A DNA stretch of 43,833 bases from Candidatus Omnitrophota bacterium (lineage in GTDB: Bacteria; Omnitrophota; Omnitrophia; Omnitrophales; Aquincolibacteriaceae), in assembly GCA_016930235.1 (NCBI GenBank), contig JAFGHI010000030.1:1-43833 (forward strand). Reading direction: 5' to 3'. A program made the position numbers and the translations under genes. This document shows positions 5,848 through 26,900 of the stretch, piece by piece. The first letter of the stretch is position 1. Every line of letters starts with the position of its first letter. The notes under the pieces were generated by a model, which saw nothing but the letters and a program-made list of their open reading frames with translations, searched no databases and was not told the DNA's origin.

Positions 5848-5955
5848 ATGCAAAAAGGCTTTAAAAAAGCGAAAGGCATATTTTCGTCGGTTACATGTCT
5901 ACTTTTTTTAATTACGAATCTATGCAACCCTTTACCCCCGAAGACAGCCTACGCT
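5848..5955 (+). other. Predicted N-terminal signal peptide of the giant ORF
   Basis: Basic start (KKAKG), hydrophobic core (SVTCLLFLITNLC), then AYA|ND as a plausible signal-peptidase site. Confidence 0.7.
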
Positions 5956-8900
5956 AACGACCAAGAAGCCTCATTCCTCACAGAACAACATCTGGGCGGT
6001 TTTGAGATACCGGCAGAGTGGGGCCGCGTGACAGAAATCATGAAGTCCGCCGAGACGGACTCTCTTATCCTTCATATCCAAACCTCTCACCGCCATTATG
6101 AAGCCCAAAAAAATATCCAGGCCATCCTTAAATATCTTTCTGAAAGATATGGGGTCCATCAACTCTTTTTGGAAGGAGGCTGGGACAAACTCGAGCCCGA
6201 GCTTCTGAGATTGACTCCTGAAGACGAAGAAACAAATCTCCGCATTACCGATGCCCTTTTGAAGGCGGGCGAAATTACCGGGGCCGAGGCCTTCCTGATC
6301 GATAACGAATCACCCGCTGATGGCTGGGGCATCGAAGATTATGAAGCCTATGCTGCCAATGGCGCTGTCTTTAAGGAAATCATACGGCAAGAACCGTTGA
6401 TTGAAAAAGGTCTCACGCAGGTTAAAGCGGCTTGGGAAAAAGAGGCCGCAAAATATTTTTCTAAACAGCTCCGGGATTTTATCCGCAGGGAAGAAGCCTT
6501 CCTGGCCAACCAAATCTCCATGAGTGATTGGTTGGATCACTTAACGCAGGAAGCCAGAACCTGTCTCCACCTGGATTTGGAAAATGTCTGGCATCAAGCA
6601 ACGTGGCCGATACTCGTACGTTACGCAAGACTTAAGAAAGTCGGAGAGTTATTCAACGAAGAAAAGATCCGGGAAGAATCGGAAGATTTTATTATAGCAT
6701 TACGGCGTCTTCAGATATCCGAGGAGATTGTCAAATCCATTCAAGAGACCTTAGGATCGGAACTGAATCAAGGAAATAGAGCTCAAGCCCGCGGAATCTT
6801 GAGATCCCGAACCCAAGACGGGGAAGAGATACCCGCTTCAGCGACACGTTTCCTCTTTGAACGGTTGTTTGATGTCCTGCCCGAAGACTTCTCAATGGAA
6901 TTATTCCCCAATCTCAAACTTTTCATTCAGCAGCTTGTCCTCATAAGCGAGCTTGAAGGCGAAAAACTGGAAGAGGAAACGCTGCGGCTCACATCCTGGA
7001 TCACCGAAGCGCTGGCTGACGGGGAAAGGGACAAGGAGCTCGTCCGGATGCTCGAGGCCATCAGGCATTTTGAGAAACTCTTTTCGCTTGAACTCACCCG
7101 CAAGGAATATCTCAACGCTTTTACGAGCCGCGGAGAGGATCCATTCAATCGTTTGTGGGAAGAAATTTTCAGCGGTCAGAAATTGAAGGCGAAAGACAAA
7201 GCATTGAAGGAAGGACTTCAAGCGCTTTACGCCAAGGCCGTCCAGTTTTATGAAGGGGCCGTCCGCCGCGAAAAATGGATGGCCGAAAATACGCTCTCTC
7301 ATCTCCGGCAGCTGGAGAATCGAAAAGCGGTTCTCATTACCGGCGGTTTTCACGCGGAGGGCCTTAAAGATGCGATCCTGAATCAAGGGGTTTCCTACGT
7401 CCAGATCACACCGCGCGTGACCGACATTCCCCAAAACACGCGGGAACTTTACCTTCAAATGGTTTTGGGCGAGTACCTGCCTTCTAATTCCAAATACGAG
7501 GCTGCCTTGAGATTACAAATGCAGGATTGGCCTGGGATGGAAAGCGATAGCTGGCCGGGCCCTTCTCAACAGAATGTCGCCCGGCATATGCTGGATATTG
7601 CAGGCCTTCAATTGAATGGCGATGCAGAGCTTGACCGGCAGTTAAAGACATCGCGTCTCGCTCAGCTGGCCGGATTACGCTCTGAACGGCGAACCGTTCG
7701 GTCTGAAGATTTGAATCCCCCGAATCGCTGGCAGGGTCATCGGTGGGATGATTGGGATGCAGATCACCTTGTCCAAACGGTCCAATCGGACACCGCCGGG
7801 AATTATGAAATTACGATTGATGAAGCCGAAGAAATTTTGCGACTTGTCCGGCAAATTCAAGGTCCTGAGCAGCCAAATCCACGCCTTGTAGTTGAAGCCT
7901 GGAAAAGCGGGCATGCCCTTACGATCGAAGAGGCAGTCGAGATGAGTCATTTCTCCAATCGGATGAATGGTACGGGTACCGTTGATTTGGATAAATGGCG
8001 GGATCAGATTGTCCAAAGAAGTAAAGACAAGAAGGGTAAAGTTAAACCGCTCAGCAGGGAAGAAGCTTTCCAAATCTTGAAGCAGATCGCGGAAATTCGT
8101 CTGATGAATGCCGATACGCGGCTTCTACCGATGCCGCTTCTGATCGATGCCTTTTTTGCTTTCGGTTCAGTGAAAAAGTTGAGGGAGATGCTCTTTGACG
8201 TGGCCTTTGACTACGTTCCGGAACCAACAGGGAAAACAGCTTCGCGCCGGGGCAGCAACCAAAAAGCTGCCGTGCAAATGAATTTGAGTGGTCTTATAGA
8301 AGCGGCCAAAGGGGAGAATCCGAAGGTGATAGATTGGGATTGGGGTTTTAAGGCCCTTGATCGGTATTATGAGCAGCATCGAATTCATGTGAGCGCGGCA
8401 AGACAGCGGAAAACAAAGTCTGAGCTGCGCTTGTCTCCAACCGAGACAAGCACTGCTCGGGACTCGATGCAACCGCCGAGTGGAACATCAAGTTCCACCG
8501 GCGTAGTACCTGCACACGAAGTACAGGTGGGGCCATCTCGCTCCGAGCCGCACCAATTTCCGACCGAAATTGGTACTGCTCAGTCCTTTGGGCCGACCGC
8601 CCAAAGGGCCGAGCTGCGGGAAGTAAGTTCCGCTTGGCTCCTGGCTGCCGCCTCGGTTTTCGTCATTGGTTTGGATATCTCCTGGCGGATACAGTTAAGG
8701 CGGAGGGTGACTCAAATTTGGGAAGGGCATGTTAAGCGGGAGCTTTCCGATCCGGATTATTTTAAAGGGCCGGGAGCCAATGAGATGTTTTTTGTCAACG
8801 AATCGCGTAAGTGGACGCGTAGACTCGTAAAGGCCATTTATTCCACGACACATGATTGGAAAGCATCTCTCGTTTCATTGGATGAATTGTTGTCGAGAAT

Positions 8901-11900
8901 CCCGCAGGTTTCGGTTTCGCTTATCCGCCGCAATCGCCGGAGCGGAAAGAATGAACATTGGTATATTACCGTTCCCGATTCGGTTGAGTTAAAGCGGTTA
9001 GCCGAAGATTCTTCAAGATTACGGTCAATCATCATTTCTCATTCCGAATTAAGGACGGAGGATGAATATTTTCGTCAATTGGTGGATGAACATCTCGAGG
9101 GGATCAGGGGTGTTTACGAGAAATTCGAAGAACGTCTTGATTCGATTGCCGGGCAACATGGCATTGACAAACTCGGATTGCGCTATGCGGTCTTGTTGGA
9201 TGTGATGAGATATAACACCCTTTTTTACGGGGATATTCTGGAAGGCCCGGGTTATTCCGGACTTTCCAGAGACGACCGTGCATTTCTTTTTGGGATCATT
9301 TTGACTATTTGGCAGATGGTTTATGATGAAATCCGGCAGTTATGGACGGAATTAAGCCGGGAATCGAATCCTTTTGAAAGATTGGCTCAGGTCCTTGACG
9401 AGACGGGGGAATTCCGCGCTGCGCTTCGGGTGAATCATCAAGAGGCGCTTAATTTAGTTATTCATGCGTTGGAAAATTCGGGTTTCGTTACCGGATCGGG
9501 AAAACAAACTGCCTCGGATTGGGTGGATTATATTATCGCCAGCGCCGCGAGATTTGAGGAAGGCCGCGTTGGGGATATGAATCAAACCCGGGAAAACATT
9601 CTTCTTCTTAAGGCCTTATTTGATGCCAAATTTCATTATTATCACCAGTTAAACAGGTATCGGGATAAAAGCATATCGAGGACAGGGGGCCGGGTTTCGA
9701 TAAGTGCGTTTGTGGAAGCGCTTCTGCGGCATGACGGGGAATTTCTGCGTGCAATAGATCGGGACGATCAGCCGCCCCGCTCCGAGCTGCGTACCTTAGG
9801 CTGGGAATGGGGATTGGCATTGGGTGCGGTTGTTTTGGGGGGTGTGTTTTATGCTTTGAATGTTTATTTGAAACGCGCTGAGTTTTTTGAACGAGTTGAA
9901 CAGATCTGGGTGGAATCCATCCGGGGAGTTTTGAAAGAATCTCATCATCCGGTCGAGCCGGGGCATGAGGATCAAATTCAGGATGATTCATGGGTCGACC
10001 GGCACGAATCCCGAAGGTTGTTGATGGAGCTTGCCGGGGTTTTAAGGAAGAAATTCCGCAATGATCCGAAGGCCATCGAAATCTTAAACAGGATTGCGCG
10101 GCAGATTTCAGATTACACAGAACCCATTGTGATGCGGGAAGGTGACAGGACGCCTCTTTACCATTTTAATCTTCCCGATCCCCGTCAACTGAAAATCATG
10201 CTCGAACAGCCGGCCAGACTCAATGAATGGATCCTGAACGCGAAAAGTAATTTTGCGCCCGACGAAATCGAGGCAACCCGATTCCAAAGGTCTGAGTTGC
10301 GCACAGGCGACATCGTTTTCCACGCTGAACCAAGTCCCTTATTGCCCGCTATCGAAAAATTTTATGGACAATTTCAGCAGACCATCGGGTGGATGCTCGA
10401 AGGACAGCTTTCGGGTGTTAAGGAACACCGGCTTGTTCGGGACATGTTAACCGACATGGCGCAATTTCATCAGAGCGAACGCAAGTGGCTTCGAGGCGGA
10501 GATTTCAAAAAACTCACATCCGAAGAAGAGGCCTTTCTCTTTTTCTCTTACCTGCTCCCTCTTTGGCGGATAATCCATCAAGAGTTGGAGCAAGTTTTCC
10601 TGGAATATGAGAAGGGTAAGCAGCCTGTCAGCGGGTTTTATGCGTATTTGACCCAAACACCGCGGGAGATCAGCGGGCGCATTTGGCAGCGGCATCGGGA
10701 ACCGTTTGGGAGGGCGGTGCAGTTAATCGGACAACATGCCGCAATCCGGTGGGCGGATGATCGGCGCCTCGGGGCTGATTTTATTGACCGTGTGATTGAC
10801 CGGCTCGTTCAATCTACGGCCGGGGTAGTTCAAAGTTTGGAACAAGAAAACAACCGATACGCCGCTATGGCGATTTTGAACTATCTTTTTAGGAGCAGGC
10901 AATTATTTTACAAGGAGTTTTCCGATTATGTCGCCGATTATGCGAAAAAGAACCTTCGGTCCCTTAGGCCCCGGCATGTAAATGAAAATCGTAATTTATT
11001 TTATCAAGCGCTCGAACAATACGAAGATACGCTCCTGCGATCAGAATTGCGGAAAGGCGTGCGCTCCAAGACGACGGTTCAAGGGGAACTGCGCGAGGTT
11101 GAAACGGCAATCAACGGAATTTCCCGCGCCTTGAGTGATCCGGAAGATGGACTTGATGAGGAAATTGCAAATCGGACTTTGACAGAACTCAACACACAAA
11201 AGGATCGTTTACTTGAAGAATTGCGGGATTTGGAATCCCGTTCCGAGCTCCGTCACGATCCGGTTTTGGAATGGCCGATGACCGATCCTAATCGAGATTT
11301 TAATCAAATGCTTACGGATTTTACTTTTTACGCTGCCAGGCAATATCACGATGGAAGCGCAAGATTAATGACGAGTCCTTCGATGATGGGTATCCAATAC
11401 AAGCGCGAGCAATCCTACGACAGCGTTTTAATTCGGCATAATCCGCAGGAGAATGAACTCGTTGTTGTCGGCAAAACGAGTCGCATTGATGAGCCCGATG
11501 CGGTTTTGAAATATGTACAAATCGTTTTTTCTGATGAGGATCTTCGTGTTTATCAGGGCCAGGCGGGTGAAGAGCATGGGGAAGTTGCTTCGGGTTCTTC
11601 AGAAGAGACCAGGATCATTGCGGAGCCTTTAAATGGTATTCGCTATCAAAGCGGTCGATTTGAACTGGTCGTAAGTCCACAGGCTTTTAGCTTCCTTAAA
11701 GCTCAAGAAGTGATGATAACCGGATTGACTTATGTGGAAAAGACGTCCGAAACGGAAATTCGCCCGCGCTCGGAACTTCATGAATCCATCTCGCCGGTAT
11801 TGGGATGGGGCGGAACCGTAAGTATCCTTTTAGGCGCCGGATTGTTTCTCGTGACGCTGGGAGGTTTGGCGGCAGTCTTCTTATTCCGGCGATGGAAGGC

Positions 11901-14900
11901 CAACGGACGGTATGACAATTATCCGGGTGTCAAATCCCATGTGCTGGCAGCCGTGAAAGCGGATCTTCGGGTTGATTTTTCTTCAGGGAAAAGGGAGATG
12001 ACCGAAGAGAAAATGGGCGGAGACGTTATTGACATTGATTATGATGACGAATTTTCAATCGACTGGGCCGCGTTACCGACGCCTCTTCTTCAAGATCTAT
12101 ATCGGCAGCTTGCTGAACAAAGGCGCCCTAAGATTGAGTTTGTATCGGGCGGGCCGCACGTGATTGTCAACCATGTTGAGCATCGCTTCTCGATGAATCG
12201 TGGCAAGAGGCTGCCGTCCCGCGTGATAGCGAAAAAGACTTTCGAGATCCGTTCTCCCCGTTCCGAGCTAAGGGCGGGATCTGTTTCACCCCGCGACTTT
12301 TTCGGTGAGGCGTTCGGTGATTGGGATAATCTTGTGCAAAGGATTCAAAGAAGTGAAATCACGTATGCTGCGATTAAACCCCTCGGACACTTCCCCGAAG
12401 AGGTGCAACTTGCGATCCGTTATCAAATTATCAGGACTTTTGTCCAGGCAGGATTTCTTGTCCATATTGGGAGACCGATTCGATTGACTCGCGAAGAAGC
12501 GGAAAAATTTTATACGGTTCATCAAGGAAAGCCTTTTTTTGATGCATTGGTTGATTATGTCTCAAGCGATGTCTATGTCCCGCTTCTTTTGGAGAAAAAG
12601 GATGGTCCTGAAATTATTGATCATGCCCGCGAAACGATTGTCGAAATCCGAAGAAAGGCACAGGCCTCTGAGTTAGTTCGAGGTGCTGAACTTATTCCAC
12701 AAGGTGTCGAGACGAGGGTTTACACGCAAAATCTTATTCACGGCAGCGATTCACCTGAGAATGCGATTTATGAGGTGGGTGTGATTTTGTCCACAGAAGG
12801 TGCGCGTTCGGAAATGCGGGGAATGACGGACCACGTGCAACGGACCACGGACCGTGAAAATTTACTCCTCACCCCAACCCTCTCCCCAGCGGGGAGAAGG
12901 CAGGGTGAGGGGGCGATCCACCTGGGTCATGGGTCTTGGGACCTGGGTCTTGAACGATCTGAGTCAAGAACGCCTTCCAGTGCACATTGGAGCTTGGCGG
13001 ATCCAGAATTTCCCCGTGGTGGTGTCATCCTGACCGATAACTATATCCGCTCCGATATGAAAACCTATTCCTTGCCGCATCACAGGAAGATTGCGGTTCT
13101 GGAAAGACAGGAAGGAGATCATCTGCCTTATGCAGGAAAATTTGTGACGGCGATCCAGCAAGCCGAGTTGGTAAACGAAGTTAATATCATCAGCCTTCAG
13201 ACATCCGGGAGTGTGCGGCAGACACTCGAAAACCTGCTGAGCGGATTCGAGCCTGATCTCGTTCTGGTACCGGTCTCCTCCGGCTGGCCGGAAAATGAAG
13301 TCGCTTCCTGGATTCATGATTATGTCCAGGTGCGCGGGAGCCCGCTTGAGGTGCTTCTTTATCCTGTTCCTCTTGAAAAGAATGATCAGTTTTTTTATAC
13401 GCCCATTTTAGAATATGACTTCGAAAAGATTATCCTGCCCGCAGTCAAAGTCCATCATACACAAAATCGAAGAACTCAATATGTGCCGGCCGTACGGCAT
13501 CTCCTGCGATTTTTGGCGGCCCGCGCCAATGCGGAACGCCGAGATGGGCCGTTGAGTACTCCCGTTGCCAATGCCTTTGCGGTGGAACTTATCCGTAAAG
13601 GGGAGGTCCAACGTGTCTTGTCTAATCGTAACCAAATGGCAGAACTGGACAAACTTGTTCCGCTTATTGTGATTTCGCCTCATCCGGATGATGATGTGAT
13701 CGCGGCCGGGGGATTGATCCGCAATATTTTAGCGACGACCGGCGTTGAGAACTGGGTTTTAGGAAGAGGGTATACCGGGGTAACGGGCGTCGGGGATTTG
13801 ACACCCGAAGAAATAGCCTGGGGGATGAGAGAACTGCAACAGATTTTCAAACCCGGCGGTGATTTCTACGACAAAACCGGTTTCGTTCCGGATCTTTACG
13901 GGCGAGTCTTAAAAGAAACGCCTGAGAGTCCAAGTCAGGAAGTGCGGTCGATTGTCGAGTACCAAGTGGATCTCCTGGGCCATTTGCCTGCTGTCCAGGT
14001 AAAAATTAACCAATGGGAACTAGGGGACAACGTCCAACCTGTTTTTGGGGAATTGGTTAAGCGGATTATTCGAAGGAAAGAGGTTGAAGAGGCTTCGCGG
14101 ATTTTATCGCGGGATTTGGAACGCCATGTATCGGTGAGATGGTTTGATCTTCATTCAGTGGCTTTTCCGCATGGTCTGGCTCCCCGGGTGCCCGATTGGA
14201 TGGTTCAGCAGGATGAAGTTGTTATTCTCGAAGAGTTCCAGCATTTTTTCAACGAACATCGTCAGCAAATTATGGCGTCCCAGACCCACGGGGTTCCCTG
14301 GAGTATTGTCGTTCCCCATCCCGAAGACCAGCATCCCCATCACAAGACGACGTCTCAAATCGTGATGACGGTGTTACAGGATTTATCCAGGCGCGAGGGG
14401 ATTGAGATTCAATTGATTGAATACCAGTCGCCCTGGGCCGGCGGGTTTGACACCTATTTTGTGACAGATACCGAGATCCCATCCGAAGCTGTTTCTCCTG
14501 ATTCCGGATTAGATCGTTCCGAAGAACTGTCGGCGATGGAGCAGTATCAACGGGCCTTAACCTTTCTTGTCGGAGAATTGGCGGGTCGGTCTTTTGGTTT
14601 GAGTTCACCGACGCCCGAACAATTAGGCGGCCGTTTTACGGAGAGTTTTAAACGACTGGTTTTTGAGCCGGTCCGCTCGGAGCTTCGTAATGATTTTCAA
14701 AAAAGAGCGGGTGATCTCCTTAACGCTTTGGAAGGATTTGACACAGCGGTTCAAACGGCTTTTAAGGCTGTCGCTAAAGATGTGCAGAAAATTGATGAAG
14801 AAGGTAGTCGCTTTCAAGTGACGCTGGGCGGTTTTCTTGGGTCTCTTGAGCGCGTCAAAGATTTGCTGCGGGCCGAAGATCTAGACCGGAAGGTGTTCCT

Positions 14901-17900
14901 AGATGCTCACGCGGCTTTGGAAAAAATTCAATCCGGGATGAAAGAGTTAATCGGAGGTTACAATCCCAAGAGGGCATCGCTCGGCGAAGTCCGGACTGCC
15001 GGCAATCAACTTGACGGAATTATTAAAGAACTTGCGGCATTTCTGGGGGTAACAAAGAAACCTGCTGCCAAAACCGTTCAACCGAAAACCGAACCGCCCA
15101 CTGAAAAAGTTGAAGGCACCGTGACGCCCCGTGAAAGTCATCGGCCGTCGATCGAGGTTAAAAAACATCAGGGGGTTGACGGTTTTGGTGCCGTATCAGC
15201 GCCGCCGGCTGAGTTTTTCGAACTTGCCAGCGGGCTCAAGCAAAGCGTTTTATCCGAGATGCTTTTGGATCCTGAGATCAATGCTATCGGGAAGGTAAAG
15301 GGCCCGGCTGCGGAGCTTGAAAAAGTAAAGGGCAGTATTATTTGGGTCGAATTGGGTTCCGAACCGGAGACGGTGGCCAAGCTTGTCATCAACGGTTTAA
15401 GGTCCGGTAAAGAAGATAAGTTACCGGTCAAGTATGGCTTTTTAATCGTTTCCTATCGCGCCGCTCCCGGATCGCCCGAAGCCAAGATGATCGTCCTTGT
15501 GCCTGAGACCGTTCCGGCAGAGAGCCCGCGGTCCGAACGGCGTGTGAAGGTTGAGGAATTGAATCGTCATTTGCGGGAACATAAAGCTCTCGACGGTATT
15601 GTTGTAGCATTACATCATTCCTATCGTGTTCGAGCGAAATGGGTTAACGCCCCGGCCGGCTCCAATGTCAAAGGTTACTATGTTTTTCTCTCACAACCTG
15701 CGGATTGGGATGAAGGCCTTGAAGAAAGGTCCGCACCGGTTCAAATGTATCTGGCCACAGAAGGAGAAATGCAGCAATATGAGTGGGAGATCCAACATCT
15801 TATGGACGAATCTTGGACGGCTCAGGAACGGAAAGGGGTTTATCTGCCGTCTGATTATTTTCTGTCCAGGAAGAAGAAAAAGAAAGTGGATCTAGCCTTA
15901 AAAAGCGAAGACGTTTTCAAGAAGGCGGCCAAAGCCATGGCGTTATTCACCAGCCACCACCAGATCGTGATGGATATCCGTGCCGCGGTTTTCTCTGAAC
16001 TCGGGGACTTCCAGTATGGTGCTGAAATTAAACCGTCTCAACAAAGCGATTTTGGTCCGCCCGCAAGTCAGGCACCTCAAAATATGATAAAGCTCCTTCA
16101 ATATGTGAAGGATCATCAATATGAAATTCTCGTTGGAGTGCAGGATATTGATCGATCAATGGGGCGGATACGATTGGTTCTAGGTGGTTCGGATGAAAAA
16201 ATCGGCAGTGTTGAAGAAGATGTAAAGACCGATTTGCCTGGATTGTCATTCCAAAAAGCAAAGGTGATTAAAGAATATCCTTCCGGGGGCAGACAGGTTC
16301 AACTTGGAAGAAAGGTGGTTATTCTTCGTGATTTTCATCAATTGAATGCGCTTTATCAAATTCTCGTCAAGCGTTTCCGTCCTGAATGGTGGAAGGGGGA
16401 TTATCTCGTGAGTGTGGCTGAAATCGAACGCGCCCTGGATCAGATGCAAGGGGCAAGGGGCAAGGGGCAAGGACGCTCCGAGCTTCGCGATGATAACCAA
16501 TATGTCGCCCGGGGAAACGGAACGATTCGTCTGGTACCGAGCGAGGGGAACAAAGCCGAGATTCATATCGTCCAGAATGATGTCAGGCAATTTACCTTTG
16601 AAATGATGTCCGGATCGGCGCAAACCGTGGTCGATAGCATTTTGTCCGGCATAGGATCTCAAGCGATTGAGGCCGTCTGGATTGGCAGTAGCGGCCACCT
16701 TATGGTTAGTGTCGGGGATTTTAACCGTTTTGTGGTTGATCCGGTTTTGGGGACGGTCGAGTTCAAACGGAACTATGTCTCAGCAGCTAGCGGTGTAATC
16801 GATCTCAAGGTGGAGCGGCGACATCTTGATCATCTAGCGGTTACCGTCAATGGGGGGCAATTTTTTACGCATACGGTTAAGAGCGCAGTAATCACTCTTA
16901 CGGCGATTGAATCCGTCAAAGGCGAAAGCGGTTATGACGCGGTCTGGCAGGATGCGAACGGTAATCTTATCATTCTATTAACGAATGGTTATCGGGTGCG
17001 GGTGGACGCAACAACCGACGAAGTTTCTGCTATGCCAGCAACAGGCTTGGACGAACTCCAGCCTTTAAAGGAAATGGGCCCTTCGCAAACAGGGACATCC
17101 GAATGGGAAGGCGAAGGAGAACAATTTCTGGTTACCTCCCGTCAGGGTGAGATTACCATTGAGACGACGGATTCGATTTTTACCGTTGCAGTTAATTTAA
17201 ACGGGAAATCAGAATTTGGCTGGGCGTTCGCGAAACCGGCTGCTCAGGTTGTGGATGAAATTAATGATGTCCGAGCTCAGTTTGGAAGTCCTATCGGATA
17301 TAAGGCTGTCTGGGGGGATAAGAGAAATCGTGATCTTGTCATTGAGCTCGATGACGGCCGGATGATCCGGGTGAAAGATCAATCGGGTGAGATATGGGTT
17401 CGCCGCGCAGATGCCGGCGAAGGGACCATTGTACTCGAGTCGACTGGAAATTACGGGGTAACTGTTCTTTTGGACGGTAACTATCGTGCTGAACTTGAAT
17501 ATCAACATGGTGCCAGAAGGTCTGCGGAAAGCCTTCGGGAACATCAGGGTACATCTCGGATTGCTTCTGTTTGGTCAAATCTGGATACAGGTGTCCATAT
17601 TTTTTACCTCGATGATGGAAGAATGCTGACAGCTGACAACCAAACCAGTGAAGTTACGGTCACTGGTGTCAAAACCGCTGGTGAAGCCCGACCGGCGGAT
17701 TCTGTTTTGTCCAAACTTCCTCCCGGTGCCGAGAAAGTCGTTGATAACGAAAACGGTTTTATCGTTTTAGAAGTCAGTAGATACGGTAATATCCTTGTTT
17801 ATGCGGGTAATCGAGATCGTGCCTACGAAATCCCAACCGCTAAAGATACCGGTCATGCATATCGGGAAGTCCACCGGCTTCAAAGAGGGGCAGACATTTC

Positions 17901-20900
17901 TTCCATCTGGAAGAATCCAGAAACATGGGACCATTTTATTGTTTTAAGTGATGGCCGGGTGATCCAAATGAATTATGCTACTCATGAAGTGACTTTTATG
18001 AGTGCTGATACTGCCCCGGGAAATTTGCCGGGCGCGACAAAGATTGCCGACTCAAACGATGGTGAGATCATGCTTTCCGCAGCGAGTACGGCGCTTGGAT
18101 TGTTAGTTAATGACGCAGTAAAAGAAACCTTCTTTATTGTTAATCCTCTGATTGTGGCACAAACATTTAATAGTTTACGCAGAGGCAGTTCGATCAAATC
18201 CGTTTGGGGTACAAGCGAGGAGCTTTTCTTTAATTTAGATGATAAAAGGGTGATTGTTATTGTCAGAGAAAACGGCAATATTTATGTCGAAGGTGAAGAA
18301 CCTGTTTCAAGTTCATCGACGGCAGTTAAAGAACATCCCAATGCCGACAAAGTAGCAGATTGGGGAAATGGCGTGATTGCATTAAGAAGGAATATCCTCG
18401 ATGAAATCATGGTTTATGAAGGCGATCGAAGAGTCTCCATCGTTCATATCCCCAGCAGTTCATCGGAACAAGTATGGAATCAAATCCGAAGGCTCAGGGC
18501 ATCCACGGAAATCGTCGCGGTCTGGCGGGAACAGACTTCGCTCGATTGCCTAATTGACTTAAGTGACGGAAGGACGATACGCATCGAGGACGAGACCGGT
18601 CGTATCGGTGTGGAAGGCGGAGATGCCACAACGCCTGCGCCGGCAGCCCTGGTCCCGCCGGCTTCTTCTTTTATCCCTCAGGAGGCCGTCTTGGTCGTGG
18701 ATTCAACGGAGGGAGGTATAGCCTTAGAAGTTACTTTAGACGGGGATATTGATATTTACATCGGTGGTCAGGTGGATAGAGACAGAAGGATTGATAATAC
18801 GACTTTAAGCAAGGCTAAAGAAATTATCGAGAAGTTAGGTGATCATACAATCACTGCGATTTGGTTAAAGAAAAGCGAGTCAAATTATTATTTGGATAAG
18901 GCCTATTATTTCGTTTTAGATAACGGACAAACGGTTGTTTTTAACGGTCGAACGGGTGAGGTATCGATCGAAGGTGTCGGAGCCGCTCCGGCTGGAGCTG
19001 ACGTGACAGCCAAAGAACACCCTGGATCAAGCAGGGTAGCGGATCAAAAAAATGGCGAGATTACAATCCGGTGGGATACAGATGATCAACTGGAAGTATT
19101 GGAGGGGAGAAGTCTCGCTCATACCATCTTTTTACACGATTTCGTAGCGGATCGAGTTCTGTCACAGATCCAGGGATTACAGGGCTCAAGCCGTGTCGTT
19201 GCCGTTTGGGAAGAAATTTCCACGCTGGACACTCTTATCGATCTAAGTGACGGAAGGACCCTCCGAATCAATGAGATTAATAGCCGAGTCACGGTTGAAG
19301 GAGAGCCGGTTGTCGCTTCGGCTGCTAGGGCAGGCAGTAGTCAATTAGCCGCGGCCAGTGCGGATGAGATGCTGGAAATGGAACAGGAGGCGATTGATGC
19401 TAAATCCAAAGCTGAGCCGGTTGCTTTTCAGGTTACTGTGGACGAAATACGGGAACGAGGAGTGGATGTTGTTCTTAGAGGCGAAGACCGTTCCGAAGTC
19501 AAAGGTTTTATTTTCGCGGATCAGTTAGATCAAGATCTCTCACGTTATTGGTGGGGCAATACCATTTCTCCCGTTTATCTCGTCTCTTATAAATATAGAA
19601 AACCCGAGCACCAAAGAAAATCTGCTCTATTTACGATGCGGTACGACCGTGCCTTGCGTGAGCGGCAATCAGGGACCCGTCAGCGGATGACTCGTCCCGA
19701 AGCACTGGAATATGTTCAAGACGCCTTTCAAAATGGTACGACGGTTGAGGCTGTTGTTCTAGGGGCATCCAGCAAGGGGACCGGCATCAATTTTATGATC
19801 GGCGGTGTTTTGAGGGCGTTTATGCGCGACCGATACGCTCGACCAAGATCCGGCGAGGTGAAAGAACTTCATGTTGTGAAAGTTGATGTTCAAAGCGGGG
19901 ACGATGTCTATGTCGAATTAGGTGAGACGGATCATCAATTGAGAAGAGGCAGGTCTGATTACCGGCGCTATATGCCCGAAGTGGATCAAGAAACGGCCAT
20001 GTCGGAATTAGAAGATGCTTTGCAGCGGGGAACAACGGTTTCAATCAGGGCAGGCCGTCCCAATGAGCGTAGAACAGGACTTAATGGTACGTACAGGGGA
20101 GCGGTTCATGTTTTCTATAGGGATGCACAAGCGGCGGCTGAGTGGTCCCGACAAACACCTGAGCAGGATATCGATGGTCTTTATGTTGTCCAAAAAGTAG
20201 AGAAAGGGCCAGACTCCTTTTATATCTTGCAGCGCAATCGGCCATCAGCTTCGGGTCCAAGATCTCAGCGCAGTATGGGAAGGTCAGGCAGCGGCGGGTT
20301 GTTCACTAGCAGTGGCCCGGCCGGCCTCTCACCGTATCGTAGAAAGGGTGGGCGGACTCCCAAAAAAAGCAAACGGCCCGGCCGCGGCGGATTGGATGGC
20401 GGCCGGCGACGTTCGGAGCTTCGTATCTGGAAAAATGGGGCGCTTGGGGAGGATCAATTAGAGATTTATTCCACGCGTGCTCACTGGGAAGGCGCCGAGA
20501 AGATGGCGGTTCCCCGCGAAATAATCCTTCACTCAGGCCGGGGTGAATTTGTTTTGCTTAACTTGAAGGCAGCGGGGCGGGCGGAAGATCAGCCAAGCCA
20601 CAATGTTTTAACCTATTCCATGGTTGCTGCCAACAGCTTGCCTTCGTTATGGGAAGAAGGTCTCCAAGTTGGCAATTTCAAGGTTGAAATTGATCAGGAA
20701 GGCCGTCCTGTCAGTCAGGGCATTCGGATTGAGATTTTTAGTGATGTCCAAGATCAATACGCGTACTTGGGAGAGTCTCTATCGCAATGGATCAATGCTG
20801 CAACGAATGGCGGCGAATTTCCTTTTACGCTTCAAAATTCCAGATTTGTCACGTTCTTGACCACCAACGTGCTGCCGACCATTAATCCTCTTGAGCAGCC

Positions 20901-23900
20901 AGATCAGGGGAATGATCTTGTAGTTGATCATGTCTCGTTAGTCAACTATGCCGATGATTTGGTTCGTAAACAAGCGGAAGCGGTTTTGGTCCACAGTGCG
21001 ACCGGCGGGTTTGGTGCTCGGGGAATGACACCTGCCTTGGCTCAATCGATTATCGAAAGCGAAACCCGGGCCATGAAGGAAGTTGGATTAACCGTTTATG
21101 CCAATGTTACACCCACGCGTTCTCGAGGGTACGAAGAAGATTATGAGAAAAATAAAGGTGAAGCCATTCAGGAAATGCTGCAGAATGCCGGGATTGCTGA
21201 AAATGCAGGCGCTGATGCGCTTGTTTTGGCGCCTCTTACCTTCTTAAGGTCCAGCGAAGAGATCACGGAAGTTGTCAATCTTTTGGTTGAAGCCACAGAT
21301 CTTCCTGTTGTTTTCTACGATAATCCGGGTCTTCACTTGATCCCGGGTCGGGATATCGACGCAGCTGTTGTCGAAAGTTTGTGGCGGTCCGGTCAAATCG
21401 CGGCGATTAAGGTTAGTACAGACCAATTTGAGATTGTGGAGGGGTATCTCCGGACAGGCATTCGTGTTTATATCGGGAATGAAGGTCTGATTGCCCGTGC
21501 CATGGAAAAGGGCGCCATTGGTTCTGTGGGTTCGACTGGAAATATTCTTTCCCTTCTGCAGGATTTACCCGTCACGAGAAATCTCGATAATCTTCAGTAT
21601 TTGCAACGTATCGTGGATGACCTTCGGGGACCGTTGACGGTGGATCAAACAAAGATTACGGCAGCTATCCTTTATGTTTTAGCGAAAGAAGGAATTGTTC
21701 AGAATGTCCTTCTTCCGGGCGTCCCAACGCTTGAAGATACGGAAAAACAAGCTATTGACGAAGCCCTTGTCAAAGTCAATCGATTGGAGGCTGGAAAGAA
21801 CGCAGGTATTGCTCAAGCGGCGCTTGAAAAAAAGGTTGTCGACCGTTTCATAGAAGATCCATTAGGTTATGTGAAATGGTTAAGAGATGAGGCTGATGAT
21901 GCGACTTTGACTCTTGCGATCAATCACATTGAAGGGGTGCTGACAGTTGAAGGGAATCGCAGGATTTTGGAAAAGCGGGGTGTTTTAGAGGAGATCGAAA
22001 CGGTCCTCGATGAAATTTTTGCCGCCCATGAATGGCCGGAGGAGGCTTTTCAAGTCGGGGAAGGGGTTGTAGACGCTGCTCAAGCGGATTTGCAAAGAGC
22101 CCGGCAGATATTGGTCGAACAAGTTGTTCGAAAGTTGTCTGACGACCGCCATGCCGAAATGCTGAACCGGTTTTATGAGGAAGGTGTTTGGAGGTCTCTT
22201 TTGGCAAATGTCGCTGAAGCGATGGCGGCGGTTCCCCGTCATCTGTATGCCTCTCGCTTTAACGGAGCTAATGCGTACGAAAATGACATCGTCTATATCG
22301 GACGCAGACAGACGATTTCCCAGCCGTCGTTAATAGCGATGATCCTTTTGTTCCTTCATTTGAAGGGTGATGAAAAGGTTCTAGAGGTCGGCGGCGGATC
22401 GGGATGGCTGGCATCTCTTTTGGGGCAGTTGACGGAAGAGGTTTATTCGACGGAAATTATTGAGCTGCTTCGCAAGCGCGCCGAGCGGACGGTTCAAAAA
22501 ATGGGAATTCAAAATGTCCATATACTTCAAGCCCGGCCGGACGTGCTCGGTTATCCGGATGCAGGACCTTATGATGTGATTGTCGTTTCAGCGGGGAGTT
22601 CTCGCGCGACGGTCCCTGACGAGCTTGCCAATCAGCTCGCTGAGGGCGGGAAATTGCTGATTCCGTTATTGGATGAAGATGCACAGGCCTTGAGGGAACG
22701 CGAGAATGCAAAAAGACTTTATTCGCTTAAAGTTTTTGTCAAAAGAAATGGTGTGTTGGTGGATATTTTTGATATGAAAGCAATGGGGTATCCTGTTTCC
22801 TTTGTGCCGCTTATCTTGCCCGAGCGCGCAGAGTTACGCGCGATCAACATCAAGTCAGAGACTTCGAAATCTGCCAATCAGTTAGTGATTGAAGTTGGTG
22901 GCAAGAAAAAAAGTGGGCGTCATATGAGAACAGTTCCTCGCTCATTTACTTTCCCGGTTTGGAGGGATGCCGCTCAACTTGTGAATGAAATTGAGGCGAT
23001 TGCTGCCACGGGAAACCGGCATTATACGGGCGTTATTATTAATTCCGAGCGTGGGCATCTTGTAACGCAATTATCGGAAGAGGCAACAACCCTTGGTACT
23101 AAAGGCTGGCATAAGGACGGCATTTTTAGTGATCTTGAGAGCGGAGATCTTGTGATTCAGTTATCCGATGGGGCATCGATCCTTGTTTCGGGTATGGATA
23201 ACTATGCTATGGAGATTCCACCCGCCGGTATGACGCGGGAAATAAAAATGAGACGAAGGGTCAAGTTGAATGGATTGGTCCCCAGCATTCTGTCGGTCAG
23301 TGCCGAGGGTGTGGTTCAAGGGAACCTGCTTGTTGAGCGCTCTTCGTCCGAAATCATTCGTGAAATCGAAGGCCTGATAGGCGAGCAGTTTTGGACGGGT
23401 GAGCGGTTTTTTGTATCGGCGGAGGTTTCGCCTCAAGAAGATGTTTTAGAATTGGTTTTGAATGACGGCCAGAAGGTGGTGGTAACGGAAGATGGTAAGC
23501 GTGTCACGATCGAAGAAGGCGGGCGTATTGCCGACCCGTTTTTGCTTCGGTCCGTCGTCCGGCTTGTCGAAGAGTGGGAAGATTACGGACAGGTTCAGAT
23601 CAATGCCAGTGTCTTGGCGGCGGAGATGGGGATCAGTTCGGATCTTACGGTGACGGACCGGGATGTTGTTCGTGCGATTCATCTTTATAATCAAAGTGGT
23701 TCCGAATACGTTTTGGTTGATTTACCCACCGAAATAGGAAGTACCTTCCAAATCTTACCGCGTTCGGAATATGAAAAGGTGGTTCCTCCCGAAGACCGCT
23801 CAGAACTGCGGTCAGTAACGGACCACGCAGAACGAACCATGGACCACGGGAATTTATCCCTCACCCCGACCCTCTCCCCGGCGGGGAGAGCCCGCCTGCC

Positions 23901-26900
23901 AGCAGTCGGGCAGGGTGAGGGGGCGAGTGACGTGGTTCGTGGTCCTTGGTCCGTGGTCCAAGCTCGCTCCGAGCTTCGCAGGAGTGGGCATCACTATGAG
24001 ACTATTCAAGGCAATATCTGGGTGAATCGGGAAATGAGTGAATTTCCGGATAAGCCCGAATTGAGTGAATTTGTGATTAGTAACGGACCTGAAATTAACT
24101 ATGCCAATGTTGACGCAAATTTCCGCGTTCGTGTTCTATATTGGGATTATCAACGCGCAATTGTTCAAGTGAAAGTCCCGGGAGGCGAGTGGTCCGAGGA
24201 GATCCAATTGTATATGCAGACGGGCCGGCATGCGATTTCAGGGACAATTCTCATGGAACTTCGCGGCTTCGGGAAATTCGAGAGGCCCGAATTCGGCTTT
24301 TATGTGCCCGGGGAGTCAAGGGTTTTGAGGCGGAGAGAATTTGACCGCGGAGTTCAGCGGCGCTCTGAGCTGCGTGATGATTTTGTGCCGTATGTAAATG
24401 AGGGACAATATACGCCTAACCTTAAAGGGTGGTTAAAATTAGGGGTGGATGGAAAAGAGGGTGGACTTTACGAATTTAGCGAGTTCGTCATATCGGTGGA
24501 GGGTGAGCTCGCTGATTTCGATGATCTTGACCGGAATATCCGGATCCAAGTAACTGATTTTTCAAAGGCGGAAAAATGGGTGGAGTTCCTATGGAAATAT
24601 CCGGGCCGGGGTTGGTCGCAGCCCGTAAAAATACGGATGGAATCGGATGAATTTCATATCACGCGGAATGCGATCATAAGATTTAGCAGTTTTGATCGGG
24701 AAGGTTTTCCGGGTTTTGCTTTTCGTGATATCAAGCGAAAACATGAAATCTTAAGGCGCCGGGCCTATGAGGAGATTAAAACAGGATTAGTTGTCAGCTA
24801 TCCCGGCGAAGAGATTGATCTCAAACATCCGGAAAATAATTTGCATTTAGAGATTGCGGATGCAGATGCAGACCAAGGAAGAGCTATGATCAAGTACCAC
24901 TCCCGAGGAGCGAACAGATGGACACGACCCCGAGATCTCAAGACAGATGCGATTATCAAAATCGACGGTTTGATTTCTGTGACCTATCGCGGTTTGGATA
25001 AAGAGGGAAAACCCCAATTTGAGTTTGAGCCCGACAATGTCAAAGTGATGCCCGGTCTGGAATACCGCCAGATCAGACAATCCGCCTACCGGCGCTCGCC
25101 ATCAAAAAGTGAGCTACGGATCGAGATCCCTGAAATCGTGGAAGTCATCAAAGACCTAATTAAAGAAACAGATGGAGAAAGGCAGATTCGTATTACGAAT
25201 GGGATTGTGGCGAACAGGCTTAATATCTCAGAGTCGGCGGTTACCACTTTGATGTTAGAAAAGGCCATCGGGCAATTCAATGAGTCAGATGGCACGCATT
25301 TTCTGGAGCCGATTCGCACGGAGATTGGGCATACGTATCTCGTCGAAACCCGTTCTGAATTGCGGGGCGAGTGGTTTAATTTGTCCGTTGATCTTCGAAA
25401 TGGCCGGGCTCTTGAAAATTATAGTGAATTGGTCATTTCCACAACAGGGAGAGTTGATGTGACGGATGTCGATCGGAATATCCGCGTTGAGGTGGTTGAA
25501 AGCGATTGGCAGCGGGAATGGGTGACCATTCGCGTCAAATTACCGGGCGGTGAATGGTCTGAAGCGATTACTTTATTTCGAGGCGATACTTATCCGTTAA
25601 CGAAGAGTGTGGATATTCAGCTTTTTACCTTTAACGGAAGTCGCGAACCTCGCCTGGGAGTTACGAGATTACCTCATGTTGGAGTCCTTCGCCGGCGGCT
25701 TTTTAACCGTGATCATAGAAGATGGCTTGAGCAGCAACCGGCGGTAAGAATAAGAGCCGAATTGCGCTTGTCTCCAACCGAGACAAACACTGCTCGGGCC
25801 TCGGCGCAATCGCCGGGTGGAACATCAAGTTCCACCGGCGTAGTACCTGCACACGAAGTGCAGGTAACGATGCCTCGCTCCGAGCTGCGGAGCAGAAACT
25901 GGGTTAATCTTCCCCTTGATGTTGAAAAAGGAAACCCCGAAATGGGCGAATTTGTGCTGAGTATGCCGGTGCTGGATATGCCCGGCAGCACGATGGATTA
26001 TTCCCGCGTTGACAATAATATTAGGTTACAGATCACGGCCTTTTCGATGAAAGGAGCCTGGATTGAATTCAGGTATAAACTGCCCGGGCGTCATGCAAAA
26101 TGGTCAAAGAACTATCGATTGCAGATGGGAGATGGACTTTATCCGATCACCGAAAGTGTTGAGTTTGAGTTGGGCTCGTTTACGGAGGAGGGTATCCCGG
26201 TCATTGGTTTTTTTGCTCCTCGCAGCGTTCGAATTTTCACAAGGCAAAATTATGACACATCCAATCGGCAGAAAACCGTCTGGTTTACTTTACGGGCGGA
26301 TACATGGGCCGGTAATCTTACGGAGGATCTAAGCGGATTTGTCATCAATAAAGAAGGAGAGGTTGACCAAACCGATATCAATAATAATGTCCGGGTCCAG
26401 GTCATTGACAAGGATGTTAAAAAGCAAACGGTCACGATTACGGTTGCTTATCCGGGAGAACAGAAAATCCGGACGGTTTTGCTTCGAAGGCACGAAGAAT
26501 ATCCGGTTTTCCTAAACTTTTCTATCCGGTTCCATTACTTTGACGATGACGGCACGCCTTATTTCGATTTTACTAAAGACACGGGTTATAAAGTTCTTCG
26601 CAGAAGCGTTTATGGAAGGGGTCCTGTTGTGCAGCATTCTGAATTGCGGGAAAAACGTGTCGCACTTCAGGGGGCACAGGGAATGCCTGAATTAGTCGAA
26701 TCATTTTTGCCGGAAGATGCGCAGAATGCGGTGTATGGTTACCGTGAAATTGGACGGGTAGGGGAGACAGGTATTTTTGCCTTTGCTGTCAAGGTGATGG
26801 ATGGCATCCTGCCTTTATCGTTACACGGGCTGGCGGCTGCCGGTCCGTTCTTTACAGAACTTCTAAGTTTGAATGGGTTGGCCATGGCGGCTCCGGGCCA

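Follow-up and report, generated by a model that had tools for sequence, protein, structure and literature searches.

Why does a giant coding sequence carry perfect hairpins whose loop recurs while their stems differ? The hairpins in question lie in a 7,183-aa ORF of the window, the 43,833-nucleotide stretch of Omnitrophota DNA analysed here (Table 1). An initial annotation, made from the letters of this stretch, had described three perfect hairpins with the loop C[AG]ACC, and all three are present. The spacer ACTGCTC(G/A)G directly follows hairpins 1 and 2, as described. Two neighbouring hairpins with 5-nt loops also exist, but only the one with the ATCAA loop is perfect; the ACGAA hairpin has one mismatch, and its second copy (25844-25866) has a perfect stem. 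The peptide pattern given for the hairpins, PTExxTA[RQ], is correct for hairpins 1 and 2 but wrong for hairpin 3. The stems had been called unrelated. Although 36 distinct 5' arms occur among 60 copies, most copies match the loose consensus RCTYRRNYC and differ from one another by compensated changes, so this description was too strong. The stems ACCAATTTC and CCTTTGGGC are outliers from the consensus.

Table 1. Features of the giant ORF in the window
Feature	Position	Strand	Remarks
Giant ORF, 7,183 aa, containing the hairpins	5848..27399	+	Pfam domains NDK, PIG-L, DHDPS, PCMT
N-terminal domain common to giant ORFs: hydrophobic signal/TM segment, then ~500 aa	5848..7560	+	Invariant H, EG, GGFH; sub-threshold ChaN/Tiki
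Linker motif KSELR preceding hairpin 1	8416..8430	+	
Type A hairpin 1, GCTTGTCTC-CAACC-GAGACAAGC, 9-bp stem, then ACTGCTCGG	8429..8451	+	Covariance model 60.2 bits
Hairpin GTGGAAC-ATCAA-GTTCCAC	8480..8498	+	Second copy at 25816-25836
Hairpin ACCTGCAC-ACGAA-GTACAGGT, one mismatch	8508..8528	+	Perfect in the 25844-25866 copy
Linker motif RSEPH preceding hairpin 2	8539..8553	+	
Type A hairpin 2, ACCAATTTC-CGACC-GAAATTGGT, then ACTGCTCAGT	8552..8574	+	51.3 bits; stem also in contigs C11, C33, C42
Hairpin 3, second hairpin of the hairpin-2 unit, CCTTTGGGC-CGACC-GCCCAAAGG	8585..8607	+	
Linker motif RAELR at the end of the 22-aa unit of hairpin 2	8605..8619	+	
Second copy of the 8426-8551 segment, same ORF, with hairpins	25759..25890	+	88% identical; RAELR before, RSELR after
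Further linker motifs (R[SA]EL[RH], RSEMR, KSELR) in the ORF	within 9778..25365	+	Starts in the next two rows
Linker motifs, starts	9778, 10288, 11038, 11239, 11767, 12259, 12805, 14674	+	
Linker motifs, starts	16474, 20410, 22825, 23797, 23965, 24361, 25105, 25351	+	

Two results indicate that the hairpins are more than chance. Perfect hairpins of at least 8 bp exceed the expectation of a Markov model at giant-ORF loci (13 against 4.7 in the window, 15 against 3.0 in L053 and 10 against 3.3 in L052). In addition, a pattern that constrains the flanks but neither the stem nor the greater part of the loop matches six copies in the genome of the window (G000), with stems paired except for one mismatch in one copy. 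Genome-wide counts here come from searches together with the stretches around matches. By DNA similarity, composite segments recur at another place in the same ORF (contig C50) and in contigs C11, C33, C42 and C63 of this genome. Identical stems are found in four or five of its contigs. There are 43 occurrences of the linker sequence CGCTCCGAGCTGC at no more than one mismatch, compared with none in a reversed control. The contigs that carry copies contain long ORFs, many of which run open to the contig ends. Several related units can be distinguished. Type A comprises hairpins of the kind of 1 and 2, and type B (RSEQRQVARMFAVPDQKDQV) has two hairpins. In types C and D, the motif codons GTTCCGAA serve as one arm of the hairpin. 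A further related unit is the CCCTCACCC/CCCTCTCCCC palindrome.

A covariance model trained on 12 type A copies has matches in 16 of the 47 genomes of the order, one of them inferred to be Omnitrophica bacterium RIFCSPLOWO2_01_FULL_45_10b. Rather than being absent or unpaired elsewhere, copies with paired stems are present in this genome and in 15 others. When 84,980 species genomes were searched with the flank pattern, 18 matches were returned, and the stem is paired in just two. One of these is again in Omnitrophica bacterium RIFCSPLOWO2_01_FULL_45_10b and the other is in a 3.3-kb contig filed under Aenigmatarchaeota (L108, JACQNY010000018.1). This contig has the hairpin and, in its ORF, four R[SA]EL[RH] motifs, and is therefore probably Omnitrophota DNA placed in the wrong bin. 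A phage origin was considered and rejected: phage records had no match, and the sole match in a viral contig has an unpaired stem. An assembly artefact was ruled out because independent genomes have different, paired, in-frame stems.

The repeated unit is larger than the single hairpin of the initial annotation. Each hairpin spans approximately 37-40 nt, and the usual unit is a segment of 63-66 bp (21-22 aa) bounded by two R[SA]E motifs. Non-redundant matches to the covariance model (81 in total) were classified by placement, with long ORFs defined as those of at least 500 aa. Sixty-two are in long ORFs on the sense strand in phase 0 (in frame with the GAG of the motif), three are in long ORFs on the other strand or in another phase, and 16 are outside long ORFs. 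The host ORFs of the coding copies are long and mostly giant and modular. An R[SA]E motif immediately precedes the hairpin in 52 of the 62 in-frame copies, and in 39 of the 62 the next R[SA]E follows 21-22 aa downstream. The encoded unit peptide is similar among copies ([LS]xPxExSTA[RQ]). An element usually has three or four reading frames, out of six, without a stop codon, and the fixed frame is therefore not dictated by stops alone; stop codons and selection could be partly behind it. Most motif linkers have no hairpin. After homologous modules, RSE carries a type B unit in contig C2, whereas plain RSELR stands there in contig C11, and this comparison between paralogous modules suggests insertion. 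The copies outside genes include a 200-nt non-coding array of alternating hairpins between minus-strand and plus-strand genes (G044, contig C64, 5000-5200).

The fixed frame and strand, the bounding of units by the motif and the similar peptide would also be expected if the 21-22-aa linker peptide were the object of selection and recombination between R[SA]E-coding sites dispersed its units, with the palindrome incidental. This explanation is very improbable indeed, as coding constraint yields no compensated changes across both arms and intergenic copies exist.

Further non-coding copies and other repeats were seen. In two genomes, hairpins that match the covariance model begin at the 3' ends of tRNA genes, tRNA-Lys and tRNA-Arg (G041 C37, L185 3053-3091; G045 C19, L200 2798-2836), and in a third such a hairpin begins at a tRNA-like 3' end (G040 C116, L188 3092-3130). 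All three are followed by approximately 90 nt of conserved sequence containing a second hairpin. In-frame CCCTCACCC...CCCTCTCCCC-GGGGAGAGGG palindromes in giant ORFs encode LTLSLSPEGRGLGEG; they are located at coding positions 1213, 4743, 9877, 11989 and 17572 of L054 and at 23872-23890 of the window. In linkers of L053, L054 and G040 C13, in-frame low-complexity segments like LETRNPKLETNFN or SSKLKVPSSKLE adjoin the motif, and it looks as though several repeat families gather in motif linkers.

Stem pairing is maintained through compensatory change. The first alignment has a covariation score of 0.603; shuffling gives 0.227, sliding never exceeds 0.125, and pairing in the inner 9-bp stem is 98.1%. 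Among 101 distinct sequences found with the model, covariation is 0.657 against 0.221, the inner stem is 97.4% paired and both-sided changes occur at eight of the nine stem pairs; this set leans towards structure because a structure model picked its members. Copies selected by their flanks are free of that bias and form a small set, with 72 pairs of which 70 are Watson-Crick, none is G-U and two are mismatches. The flanks of the hairpin are TGC and ACTGC; ACTGC and the loop consensus are conserved. An outer GAGC/GCTC helix was discarded as a structural part: it is only 79.6% paired and varies with the peptide motif of the lineage, and so is taken as a by-product. Further copies whose stems stay paired through compensatory change support the proposal that the hairpin is a structure-recognised element.

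G-U pairs (G·T in DNA) make up 6 of 540 cells (approximately 1%) in the 40-nt copies. RNA helices normally tolerate clearly more G-U than this. We infer from the low G-U level that constraint or correction acts on DNA hairpins rather than on RNA. Structured mRNA elements in the linkers of giant genes, with a role in translation pausing, mRNA processing or mRNA stability, would match the strong covariation, the location between modules and the coding-strand placement of 62 of the 65 long-ORF copies. Such a function is unlikely, however, given the scarcity of G-U, the non-genic copies (including the array), the absence of the hairpin from most motif linkers and the lack of a match to any Rfam family in the window.

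The initial annotation also raised templated generation of the hairpins. Perfect stems of many sequences with few one-sided intermediates are what would be seen if polymerase template switching or arm-to-arm correction perfected the stems, without trans-acting recognition of the hairpin. Scarce one-sided intermediates fit arm-to-arm correction and selection on a DNA hairpin equally well. As a full account, self-templating is very unlikely: it leaves the conserved ACTGC flanks, the loop consensus, the dispersal to many sites and the fixed position at the motif unexplained, and broken or bulged copies persist. As the same stems occur in four or five contigs of one genome, self-templating is at most an added process.

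The hairpins probably represent a small, non-autonomous palindromic element of DNA whose copies have dispersed within one Omnitrophota order, using in-frame linker sites of giant ORFs. The proposed model is as follows. The element would insert directly after R-[SA]-E-[LVM]-R codons, on the coding strand and in one phase. Each insertion would add an in-frame linker of 21-22 aa, usually ending in a new R[SA]E motif. The element would be moved or copied as a folded DNA hairpin, either by transposition with a trans-acting enzyme or by recombination or conversion between motif-coding sites. Movement as a hairpin would keep the stems complementary while their sequence drifts, and the linkers of giant genes would be the landing sites at which the element is tolerated. 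A search for the mobilising enzyme in the genome of the window found three Y1 transposase-like (Y1_Tnp) genes, none of which is flanked by these hairpins. Mobilisation by a neighbouring RAYT was therefore rejected; such an enzyme could still act in trans. Separately, GTAGGGAACGGTT-TCA-AACCGTTCCCTAC, a palindrome located close to a Y1 transposase-like gene (L129, 1721-1749), resembles a conventional REP/RAYT pair.

Two groups of known palindromic elements are comparable. Rickettsia palindromic elements (RPEs) are short palindromes that have entered protein-coding genes in frame and encode a peptide of their own (PMC10969869). The present element is likewise a hairpin-forming palindrome inserted into coding genes in a conserved frame (62 of the 65 long-ORF copies are sense, phase 0). 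However, RPEs are approximately 150 bp in length (about 100-150 bp as a criterion), whereas this element is 37-66 bp. RPEs are found in many unrelated metabolic genes rather than in long, mostly giant modular ORFs, and orthologues without the insert are known for them, while presence and absence are seen here between paralogous modules only. Unlike RPEs, the present element sits at one pentapeptide motif and has highly variable stems. As the length and host-gene features differ, the element was filed, by comparison of described features, as a variant of coding palindromes and not as an RPE. REP/BIME elements share small hairpins with compensated stems, and the G044 array of alternating hairpins is intergenic as theirs are. 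REP/BIMEs are extragenic, however, whereas the present element is mostly intragenic (62 of 81 copies occupy one frame of long ORFs). It also has TGC and ACTGC flanks in place of the GTAG foot. The RAYT-like genes of the genome of the window are not flanked by the present hairpins, and one has its own GTAG palindrome.

The motif R[SA]E[LVM]R at which the element sits is abundant in the giant ORFs. Giant-ORF sequence totalling 58,198 aa contains 102 copies of RSELR, compared with 0.19 expected by composition. A larger set from this genome has 126 RSELR copies with 91 DNA spellings. Codon use for the Glu, Leu and last Arg is near background and Ser is almost always TCN, which fits descent under protein-level selection. 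The first Arg and Ser codons, in this genome and its relatives, show a CGY-TCC bias that is not fully explained and is possibly a nucleotide-level constraint. The motif is sharp, with hydrophilic, unconserved flanks, and S, A or T is often the next residue. Where homologous modules are shared between giant ORFs, 47.5% of their ends have a motif no more than 25 aa away; random placement gives 13.5%, with 23.8% as the highest of 500 draws. The motif looks like punctuation between protein modules.

The commonest form of the motif differs between genomes. It is RSELR in G000, G014, G031 and G035, RSEMR in G011 and G017, RAEVR in G040, and RSEVR or RSEAR in G022, G028 and G041. In most genomes belonging to families f1, f3, f6 and f8, a broader motif pattern exceeds its control; no enrichment was found in f2, f4, f5 or f7, or in the other classes and phyla searched. 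A literature search for "RSELR" returned alginate-lyase papers only and none on giant ORFs, and the motif is apparently newly described here.

Many giant ORFs whose 5' end is present have an N-terminal region in common, which is approximately 550 aa long, starts with a hydrophobic, signal-like stretch and contains invariant H, EG and GGFH residues. This domain has no significant match in Pfam, NCBIfam or PDB, the similarity to ChaN/Tiki being weak and below threshold. The downstream modules vary, with matches to NDK, PIG-L, DHDPS, PCMT, CheR, GNAT, HEAT and methyltransferase domains. Giant ORFs with transmembrane segments, few annotated domains and poorly understood roles are already known from the same phylum, Omnitrophota (PMC10066038); the parts of that account consulted here do not mention pentapeptide punctuation or palindromes.

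As in polyproteins, a short conserved motif stands at the module boundaries. More tentatively than the mobility of the element, the motif itself may act at the protein level as a signal for a factor in trans, the simplest candidate being a protease site that separates the modules of a secreted polyprotein. Its concerted change by lineage fits recognition in trans. A wider reading of the same sequences is possible, if doubtful: the giant ORFs would be secreted polyproteins and R[SA]E[LVM]R a cleavage signal between their modules, evolving in step with a dedicated protease in each lineage. The motif-coding DNA would then also be the landing or exchange site of the palindromic element, such that its spread and the shuffling of modules share sites.

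With these hairpins, coding palindromes kept in frame have a clear example in bacteria other than Rickettsia. Their stems, which change yet stay complementary, are useful for understanding how DNA hairpin elements move and persist. Giant Omnitrophota proteins reach tens of thousands of residues, and a short, lineage-specific motif at their module boundaries offers a direct handle on whether they are cut, and by what.
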